From the IMG/VR virus record IMGVR_UViG_3300021356_000095, positions 1 through 31,648 of that record: 31,648 nucleotides of DNA; one strand, written 5' to 3'. The notes under the pieces are model-generated. The model worked only from the letters and a program-made list of their open reading frames with translations, ran no database searches and had not been told where the DNA came from. Origin of the DNA: a virus. Both the position numbers and the translations under genes were made by a program. This document shows, in pieces, positions 24,224 to 26,154 of the stretch (its first letter is position 1; each line of letters opens with the position of its first letter).

Positions 24224-24501
24224 AATCATTCAAAGAAGTCTTTGAGCAGTCTCAACAAAAGTCTTATCGTCTAGGTGAAGTATTTTCAGAAGGTGATTGG
24301 GTGAGAAACGCTGATGGTCAGGTAGGCAAGATTCATCGTCGTGGTATCAATTATGTCATTGCTGTTACAGAAGAAGGTGACATGTTTCGTGCCTGGGTAA
24401 AAGATGTTACCGAGCACAAAGGATACGAGGATGAAAATCCAACTACAGCAAAAGATACAATCAAGACATTTATAAATAAAAGTAAACGGAAGTCGAAGTA
24501 A
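24220..24501 (+). CDS. Small SH3/KOW-like conserved cyanophage protein
   Basis: 93 residues. After an N-terminal helix (MKSFKEVFEQSQQ), the centre EGDWVRNADGQVGKIHRRGINYVIAV...MFRAWVKDV has the turns of a small SH3/KOW barrel. The C terminus is basic. The 'MKSFKEVF' type of N terminus is frequent in cyanophage structural-island proteins. It overlaps the genes on both sides by 1-4 nt. The function is unknown. Confidence 0.72.
   Translation: MKSFKEVFEQSQQKSYRLGEVFSEGDWVRNADGQVGKIHRRGINYVIAVTEEGDMFRAWVKDVTEHKGYEDENPTTAKDTIKTFINKSKRKSK
24471..24478 (+). promoter_or_regulatory. T4-type late promoter, exact TATAAATA
   Basis: TATAAATA lies 30 nt before ATG 24501, inside the end of the preceding gene. 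It could give a separate late transcript for the Cys-rich frameshift gene. Confidence 0.5.
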
Positions 24502-25103
24502 TGAAACCTTACGATACGGTTAATGATGATTTCTCCAAATTTATTATGGAGAGAGCTATTGCTGGTATGACGGGTCAAACCTCATACGGTCAAATCGAAG
24601 AGAAGTGTAATCACTCTGGTGCTGGCACCTGCTGCCCTGAGCATGGTGATGCTGATTGTAATTCTTCCAAGCAGAATCGCAAAGAAGAAACTGAAATTAA
24701 AGAAGGTAGTTTGAAACAAGCACGCAAAAATATTGGTAGAGACCCAAACAAGAAGTCTTGCTGGAAAGGATACAAGGCAACAGGCACTAAGATGAAGGGT
24801 GGCAAGTCAGTCCCTGATTGTAAAAAAGAAGAAGCTGAGATTGCAGAAGGTCTGAAGGGTGGTCAGCATAAGATTGATGCTAACAAGAATGGTAAGATTG
24901 ATAGTCATGACTTCTCCATTCTCCGTGGTAAGAAAAATAAGAAGTCGATGAAAGAAATGTGGCAACTCGCTGCAGAAGCAAAGGCAAAGATTGAAGTCAT
25001 GCCTGAGATTGATGACCGTGACCCTGGTAACATCAAAAAGAAAGGTGAGAAGAAAGTAGAAGAGTCTTCCTGCGGTAGCAGCAAGAAGGGAAAAAAGTAT
25101 TGA
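24501..25103 (+). CDS. Cys-rich, EF-hand-like late protein; zero-frame product of a frameshift pair
   Basis: 200 residues in frame 0. Visible parts: a Cys/His cluster KCNHSGAGTCCPEHGDADC (35-53), plausibly metal-binding; CWKGYKATGTKMKGGKSVPDC (87-107), a two-Cys motif I associate with several cyanophage late proteins; an EF-hand/dockerin-like loop DANKNGKIDSHDF (124-136) with the D-N-N-K-D spacing; and a lysine-rich C terminus. The reading frame ends KKGKKY-stop immediately after an A AAA AAG slippery site (25091-25097). A -1 shift there would replace the final Tyr with 50 further residues (ending at 25249), giving about 249 residues. The function is unknown; a virion or assembly protein is likely from its position. 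Confidence 0.78.
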   Translation: MKPYDTVNDDFSKFIMERAIAGMTGQTSYGQIEEKCNHSGAGTCCPEHGDADCNSSKQNRKEETEIKEGSLKQARKNIGRDPNKKSCWKGYKATGTKMKGGKSVPDCKKEEAEIAEGLKGGQHKIDANKNGKIDSHDFSILRGKKNKKSMKEMWQLAAEAKAKIEVMPEIDDRDPGNIKKKGEKKVEESSCGSSKKGKKY

Positions 25104-25126
25104 GTCAGGAGGAGGCACCTCCTGGC
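25091..25126 (+). promoter_or_regulatory. Candidate -1 programmed ribosomal frameshift signal
   Basis: Slippery heptamer A AAA AAG (25091-25097) lies in the correct phase of the 24501 frame (codons GGA AAA AAG TAT TGA). After a 6-nt spacer comes a stem of nine pairs (25104-25112 with 25118-25126: CAGGAGG/CCTCCTG core plus a G-U and a G-C) with a 5-nt loop. The zero-frame stop sits in the spacer. This is the arrangement of E. coli dnaX-type sites. The -1 frame stays open for 50 codons. Confidence 0.7.
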
Positions 25127-25249
25127 AAAAAATATGAGAGGATGATTAAGCATATTAAAAAAGGATATGCTAAGGATGGCAAGTTGACTAAGGATGAAAA
25201 GTCTATTGCTTATGCAACTGCATGGAAGCATAAGAATAAGAATAAATAG
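25097..25249 (+). CDS. -1 frame extension of the 24501 gene (or separate 49-codon TTG/35-codon ATG ORF)
   Basis: Fifty codons from the slippage point to TAG 25247-25249. The sequence has a PPGKKYERMIKHIKKGYAKDG segment followed by KLTKDEKSIAYATAWKH, a tail pattern I remember at the C termini of several cyanophage proteins; that makes it real coding sequence and suggests it normally belongs to a longer protein. Alternative ways to express it: TTG 25100 overlapping the upstream stop as TTGA, as in speD at 9392, or ATG 25142. The strong AGGAGGAGG is in the right place for neither TTG nor slippage but could help ATG 25142 weakly. Confidence 0.68.
   Translation, partial: VLSQEEAPPGKKYERMIKHIKKGYAKDGKLTKDEKSIAYATAWKHKNKNK
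25241..25248 (+). promoter_or_regulatory. Late-promoter-like AATAAATA
   Basis: One mismatch to TATAAATA, overlapping the stop of the -1 frame and 25 nt before ATG 25273. Confidence 0.4.
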
Positions 25250-25480: not shown

Positions 25481-25502
25481 AGGGGCGCAAGCCCCTTTTT
25501 TT
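25481..25502 (+). terminator. Intrinsic terminator
   Basis: AGGGGC and GCCCCT pair perfectly around GCAA and are followed by seven T. The last T is also the first base of the TATAAATA promoter, so one unit ends exactly where the next begins. Confidence 0.92.
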
Positions 25503-25509
25503 ATAAATA
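25502..25509 (+). promoter_or_regulatory. T4-type late promoter, exact TATAAATA
   Basis: Exact consensus immediately after a terminator and 37 nt before the ATG of a virion protein, with TAGGAG at about 25531-25536 as Shine-Dalgarno. This is the best late promoter in the window. Confidence 0.75.
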
Positions 25510-25545: not shown

Positions 25546-26154
25546 ATGCCTCTATGGGGAAAGACAGACTCTGCTGGTGACAAACCAGCGTGGGCAACCA
25601 CGTTGGAAAACATGGACACCGCAGGTAGACAATTAATTTTTATTGATAACACTGAAGCAGAATTAGAAGTTAACCGCGCAAGAGGATTCAATTCTCCTGG
25701 TTGGTGGGCATATTATACTGTTGAGCAATCTGATGGCACCCTACGCTACAGAGGTCAAGAGTGCTTAGTTGCTATTTCTGAGACAGCAGCAAACGCTGGT
25801 GACCAGGCAGACGACGCAGTGGCAGCAGACGCAGCACCTGCAGCAATCAGCATTGATGCACAACCATCTGATGAAGGTGCTGCAGGAGACCCATTCACTG
25901 GCACATTCGTTGTTGGTGCATCTGGTGGTGCAGGCACACTCGGATTCCAATGGCAAGTCCAGACTGCAACTCAGTCTTCACGTTGGGCAAATCTTGAGGA
26001 CGCAGGTGTTTACAGTGGCACTGGCACCAGCACTCTAACTATCACTGGTGCTGCTAAGGCAGACCTAGATGGTTTCAAATTCCGTTGCAGAGTTTCTGAT
26101 GACGGTGGCGCTCTAACTGTTAACTCCAACAAAGCGACCTTAACATTTGCATGA
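25546..26154 (+). CDS. Virion structural protein with C-terminal Ig-like domain
   Basis: 202 residues. The N-terminal part (MPLWGKTDSAGDKP...NSPGWWAYYTVEQSDGTLRYRGQECLVAI) matches a cyanophage structural family by pattern. An Ala/Asp-rich linker (about 80-105) leads to an Ig-like domain: FQWQVQTA, then GVYSGTGTSTLTITGA, then FKFRCRVSDDGG, with the core W and C of the fold. Ig-like domains on phage capsids or tails usually aid attachment to cell-surface sugars, as with T4 Hoc. It has its own late promoter and Shine-Dalgarno. Confidence 0.82.
   Translation: MPLWGKTDSAGDKPAWATTLENMDTAGRQLIFIDNTEAELEVNRARGFNSPGWWAYYTVEQSDGTLRYRGQECLVAISETAANAGDQADDAVAADAAPAAISIDAQPSDEGAAGDPFTGTFVVGASGGAGTLGFQWQVQTATQSSRWANLEDAGVYSGTGTSTLTITGAAKADLDGFKFRCRVSDDGGALTVNSNKATLTFA

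Follow-up and report, generated by a model that had tools for sequence, protein, structure and literature searches.

A very probable programmed -1 ribosomal frameshift of dnaX type at the end of a late gene of T4-like cyanophages

The end of ORF1 and its -1 frame

The cyanophages considered here are T4-like and infect the dominant picocyanobacteria of the ocean. In the 31,648-nt stretch of viral DNA that was analyzed (the window), a gene, ORF1, stops directly behind a run of A, and the frame one base back stays open beyond the stop. The question raised by this locus is whether ribosomes starting on ORF1 make one protein or two. A sequence-only reading had proposed two, through a -1 frameshift cassette in a late gene. 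The locus comprises the following features.

24471..24478, + strand: late promoter of T4 type, TATAAATA, 30 nt before the start codon ATG of ORF1
24501..25103, + strand: ORF1, 0-frame, 200 aa, the short product ending KKGKKY
25091..25097, + strand: slippery heptamer A_AAA_AAG, in phase with ORF1
25097..25249, + strand: -1 frame tail, a basic domain of 50 codons, with its TAG at 25247-25249
25098..25103, + strand: 6-nt spacer TATTGA, which includes the 0-frame stop TGA
25104..25126, + strand: predicted 3' stimulatory stem-loop of 9 bp (25104-25112 with 25118-25126) with a 5-nt loop
25273..25476, + strand: next gene, phrog_402, the downstream marker of the locus
25482..25502, + strand: terminator-like hairpin GGGGC-GCAA-GCCCC with a T run, read from the sequence and closing the unit

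ORF1 ends in ...GGA AAA AAG TAT TGA, with the codons AAA at 25092-25094 and AAG at 25095-25097, and the stop TGA (25101-25103) lies one codon (TAT) beyond the heptamer. As in -1 frameshift sites of the X_XXY_YYZ type, the heptamer is in phase and the -1 frame is open past the 0-frame stop. This frame runs from 25097 for 50 codons (VLSQEEAPPGKKYERM...KNKNK; in full, VLSQEEAPPGKKYERMIKHIKKGYAKDGKLTKDEKSIAYATAWKHKNKNK) and encodes a strongly basic tail (pI 9.9). The stem follows the heptamer after 6 nt, within the range of about 5-9 nt downstream expected of a 3' structure, and the fold of 76 nt had a free energy of -17.6 kcal/mol (z = -3.3), equalled by 3 of 200 shuffles. The in-phase A AAA AAG with TGA 3 nt on, the 9-pair stem after a 6-nt spacer and the lysine-rich -1 frame of the sequence-only reading were thus all found again, and its coordinates were correct throughout. 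Its two products of 200 and about 249 residues agree with our computed lengths of 200 aa (22.1 kDa) and 199 + 50 = 249 aa (27.7 kDa), both products being predictions from the sequence.

Among heptamers of this kind, A_AAA_AAG was reported to shift most readily in E. coli, where dnaX uses it naturally (PMC5009743). When Lys-Lys codon pairs were counted in the genome of isolate S-H9-2 together with the window (219 kb), 7 of 383 were in A_AAA_AAG. Three of these seven were located 10 codons or fewer from a stop, and two of the three were the present junction. A lysine-rich C-terminus does not explain the heptamer, because so few Lys-Lys pairs take this form.

We are highly confident that the locus is best explained by genuine programmed -1 ribosomal frameshifting, located where a cyanophage gene that is transcribed late comes to its end. 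On arriving at A_AAA_AAG, most of the ribosomes on ORF1 would decode TAT-TGA and release the 200-aa protein. Some would be held up by the stem-loop, which lies 6 nt past the heptamer, and their two Lys-tRNAs would slip back by one base, to AAA-AAA. The slipped ribosomes would go on with GTA-TTG-AGT in the -1 frame and append a 50-aa basic helical module, ending at TAG 25247 with the 249-aa protein. We infer that this slippage occurs in the cell with some efficiency and that the long form has a role of its own.

The motif NATAAATA, reported as a late promoter motif of cyanophages (PMC2984593), was found 20-54 nt before the ORF1 ATG in the frameshift class, where 57 of the 58 loci that could be tested had it, and likewise in 53 of 60 loci of the ATG-start class described below. 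The neighbours of the locus were mostly replication genes; they included SbcCD-like, clamp loader, DNA polymerase, helicase and cytidylyltransferase genes and a head protein family. Since the promoter is conserved, ORF1 is very probably a late gene despite the adjoining replication genes. The designation as a late gene in the sequence-only reading therefore stands, with the promoter 30-41 nt upstream of ORF1 in nearly all relatives. On the 3' side of the tail came phrog_402 and the head protein family; in isolates, the neighbours of this family carry the label virion structural protein, T4-GC 537. A further TATAAATA at 25502-25509 directly overlaps the terminator-like hairpin (window 25482-25509) and is a late promoter serving the gene of the head protein at 25546.

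In the ORF1 protein we noted the sequence IEVMPEIDD, the motif CWKGYK...GGK and a DxNxDG stretch that weakly resembles an EF-hand or dockerin. Neither ORF1 nor the tail matched a family above cut-off in Pfam or NCBIfam scans, and the tail had no DUF6321 match in Pfam. The DUF6321 label rests only on the annotation of the phage Sf-CH11 record, and no mention of it was found in the literature searched. A profile search of solved structures found nothing. The AlphaFold2 model of the tail showed two helices at low confidence (pLDDT 72, pTM 0.35); rows derived from annotated records were left out of the alignment used for the structure model. Most likely the long product is a minor form of a late protein with an extension at its C-terminus, to which the module would add positive charge. 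That this late protein is a basic one is our guess, made with low confidence.

Conservation of the junction in relatives

IMG/VR and annotated phages were scanned for the tail domain (pattern xxxKExAPPGKKYERMVKHIKK...SIAYATAWKHKNK) and yielded 281 loci, of which 133 were distinct in the 210 nt around the domain start. In 61 of the 133, a long ORF had A_AAA_AAG 0-1 codon before its stop and the domain in its -1 frame. In another 60 the domain was opened by its own ATG close to or at the end of another frame, mostly in an ATGA overlap with the upstream stop (MK[ST]FKQ[LF]REEC...); in a few of these the domain belonged to an ORF at a different locus or to one longer ORF (L080). In the remaining 12, another ORF contained the domain or ended with it. 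No locus among the 133 had the domain in another frame with neither heptamer nor start. One contig, IMGVR_UViG_3300035135_000069 (L013, L092, L103), encoded ORF1, tail and phrog_402 proteins identical to those of the window and is probably the same virus or a very close one.

The 61 frameshift loci formed 24 clusters at 80% identity around the site, a partial correction only, as related contigs are not independent. All seven heptamer positions were identical in 24 of 24 clusters, with variable flanks. The codon before the heptamer was GAA, GCA, GGA, TCA, GTA or CCA in these clusters, always ending in A, and the 0-frame stop in frameshift loci was TGA, TAA or TAG. The 0-frame N-termini also varied by cluster (MKPYDTV, MYNFSEY, MDLSKLA, MERQKPT, MKSFSDF, MAKRDAL, MTQNNFE). 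In the ATG-start class, Lys-Lys occurred near the C-terminus of the upstream ORF in 54 of 60 loci, and A_AAA_AAG in none of the 60.

Searching with ORF1 itself located relatives that lack the tail. In five near relatives with the same ORF1 (L093, L096, L099, L100 and L101), the next gene follows directly, and ORF1 ends in KKAKKY encoded by GCG AAG AAG, GCG AAG AAA or GCG AAA AAG. Another tail-less relative (L144) reads ATA AAA AAA TAT TAA. A_AAA_AAG was present in the window and in all the relatives with a tail (L092, L094, L095 and L097). The heptamer was thus lost at synonymous sites where the tail is absent, a conservation beyond what the amino acids need. Judged from these alignments, the heptamer evidently serves the tail and not the short protein, because the C-terminal peptide is unchanged where heptamer and tail are lost. 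The alignment of relatives suggested by the sequence-only reading hence spoke for frameshifting: heptamer and tail are gained and lost together at synonymous sites, and the heptamer is invariant in the 24 clusters. The signal, its phase, its conservation and its coupling to the tail are established at this level of comparison.

The same comparison bears on starts of translation within the -1 frame, which the sequence-only reading had named as alternatives (TTG 25100 or ATG 25142). Under translational coupling, ribosomes that have terminated at TGA 25101 would use TTG 25100, which overlaps this stop, as a new start in the -1 frame, and the tail would be a separate protein of 49 aa. The window has this TTGA overlap, several relatives have a GTGA overlap, and in the sister group this domain is clearly opened by starts that lie in an ATGA overlap. 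The start is, however, unconserved in the frameshift loci: GTG occurs elsewhere, many loci have GTA-TAA/TAG contexts, GCA stands at the start position in L338, L340, L349 and P-HM2, and L019 has CTG at the position of TTG 25100, with no ATG, GTG or TTG between heptamer and domain. The heptamer is always present, and coupling leaves unexplained that, at synonymous sites, the heptamer persists where the tail does and is missing where the tail is missing. We consider coupling improbable, and on these alignments re-initiation is evidently not what is conserved.

An independent start further inside the -1 frame, at ATG 25142 or at the Met of VE[VI]MP in other clades, was chosen by the annotators of S-H9-2, P-HM1 and Sf-CH11. 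The Met of KYERM (ATG 25142), however, was invariant across 80 aligned domain sequences whatever their start, including those that start far upstream, and a start there would lose conserved residues. As for the Met of VEVMP, relatives of the ATG-start class carry it inside the protein, and in the window it belongs to frame 0. Such a start is extremely improbable, and neither of the two proposed start codons held up, with CTG at the one and an invariant internal Met at the other.

Frameshifting thus remained the preferred reading, and two further ways to obtain the same frame were weighed against it. Insertion of one A into the A run by the RNA polymerase would yield the same reading frame, so that the fusion would come from edited mRNA. 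The runs here, however, have only 6-7 A and are always terminated by G, shorter than the runs of about 9 on which bacterial transcriptional slippage was described (PMC5009743), and the conserved downstream stems and Shine-Dalgarno elements act on ribosomes. Transcriptional slippage is accordingly very improbable. That a single ORF was broken by a sequencing error or in a pseudogene might be thought of for a metagenomic viral contig such as the window; the same junction in independent contigs and in isolate genomes makes the chance of this next to negligible.

The elements that could stimulate the frameshift differed among clades. In most clusters, a predicted stem begins about 6-7 nt past the heptamer. 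Group A, the clade of the window, retains the stem without compensatory changes, apart from L337, where a weak hairpin takes its place; covariation was looked for among the few distinct group-A sequences and none was found. In clade B3 (16 loci), an equivalent stem showed changes on both sides of pairs (15/54, 18/51 and 30/42), and its covariation score was matched by 0 of 500 shuffles. Covariation of the stem was seen in this sister clade and not in the clade of the window. Many group-B loci have an AGGAG/GGAGG-like Shine-Dalgarno about 6-13 nt upstream of the heptamer, and in L001 and L184 of this group AGGAGG ends 7 nt before it. The window had no good Shine-Dalgarno at the dnaX spacing, only AAGGGAA abutting the heptamer. 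The clade of the window and clade B2 would rely on the stem.

Isolates and the second mode of expression

The junction was present in nine isolates: Sf-CH11, S-H9-2, P-HM1, P-HM2, MED4-213, S-CAM1, S-CAM3, Syn1 and Sf-FR1. The tails of the last seven lack KYERM and have VE[VI]MPE or a similar sequence. An ATG stands instead of the junction in S-RSM4, S-H9-1, S-WAM2, Sf-CH1b and ACG-2014h, and ACG-2014b and S-SZBM1 have other endings. The isolate records that were read either list the tail as a hypothetical gene of its own or leave it unannotated; therefore proteome searches against these records would miss the long protein.

S-RSM4, S-WAM2, S-H9-1 and Sf-CH1b, with their ATGA overlap, have the same locus, a homologous ORF1 and the same basic domain, but, unlike the window, they have no heptamer and make the domain as a separate protein from its own ATG. 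Relatives that lack the heptamer and keep both ORFs with their own starts had been named in the sequence-only reading as evidence that would speak against frameshifting. Such relatives do exist in this sister group, but the start is a dedicated ATG, and we therefore read it as a second mode of expression rather than a refutation. It also follows that fusion is not essential to the domain.

The record of S-H9-2 has an A_AAA_AAG at position 125265 (L356:25265), directly before the stop of a small ribonucleotide reductase-like ORF. The -1-frame ORF that follows this site has its own ATG in a TAATG overlap.

Known frameshift systems and the composition of the locus

E. coli dnaX (tau/gamma) has the same A_AAA_AAG and a simple 3' stem-loop. 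Its upstream Shine-Dalgarno-like element is shared by some relatives, at 6-8 nt before the heptamer, but not by the window, so that the likeness to dnaX drawn in the sequence-only reading applies to heptamer and stem and not to the upstream element. The mixture of stems and Shine-Dalgarno elements across clades resembles dnaX with and without this element. Unlike in dnaX, the frameshift product here would be the longer protein, the 0-frame stop is immediate, and the gene, a late gene of a phage, is unrelated to dnaX. A layout with a longer frameshift product exists for dnaX in a few bacteria, according to a review (PMC5009743).

Lambda gpG/gpGT likewise has a -1 frameshift near the end of a late gene that adds a C-terminal domain, but here there is no adjacent tape-measure gene and no homology was found. 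A tail assembly chaperone of the lambda G/GT type was rejected on gene context, as neither a tail module nor a tape measure gene neighbours the locus. A tail-assembly role is thus unsupported, the neighbours being replication genes and the head protein family. In 2022, Vladimirov et al. reportedly argued against the use of frameshifting by T4-like chaperones, and cyanophages are T4-like. T7 gene 10 (10A/10B) shares the arrangement of two products with one N-terminus, the longer made by a -1 frameshift near the end of a late gene. It differs in that the present gene is not the major capsid gene, the slippery site is another one, and local stems stand where T7 has a distant terminator element.

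No matching earlier report of cyanophage frameshifting was found in the searchable literature, outside which most subscription journals lie. The mechanism would belong to a known kind; as a frameshifter, the gene family seems not to have been reported in that literature. Taken from sequence comparison, this would be a new gene family with -1 frameshifting of dnaX type, and with it a widespread family would join the short list of phage genes decoded in this way. As loci with tail and heptamer, with neither, and with a tail opened by its own ATG occur as paired cases, the evolution of a recoding site becomes directly testable.

Two metagenomic contigs at the same locus, L129 and L175, have A_AAA_AAG followed by TAG and lead into unrelated -1 tails of 296 and 129 codons, respectively; the distance from heptamer to phrog_402 is 936 nt in L129 and 430 nt in L175. 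The L175 tail has no start codon within its first 150 nt. VEVMP-like sequence lies in frame 0 in the window (IEVMPEIDD) and in the -1 part in group B. The impression is of a modular locus that has retained its frameshift joint. We tentatively propose, at slightly less than an even chance, that the site serves as a portable joint: T4-like cyanophages would have one hypervariable late locus at which differing N-terminal proteins and C-terminal modules (KYERM, VEVMP-only, and the L175 and L129 tails) would recombine around a conserved frameshift site that sets the ratio of short to long product, and sister phages would swap the site for an ATG.

The KYERM domain was also observed in-frame within a different protein near terminase genes (L006 1300-1668 and L007 1300-2193; MED4-213 and P-HM2), and the module has therefore spread to a second locus. 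On the host side, the review cited above (PMC5009743) describes frameshifting in the carboxysome gene cso2 (CsoS2), predicted in 79 of 162 species, which may be a parallel in the marine picocyanobacterial hosts.
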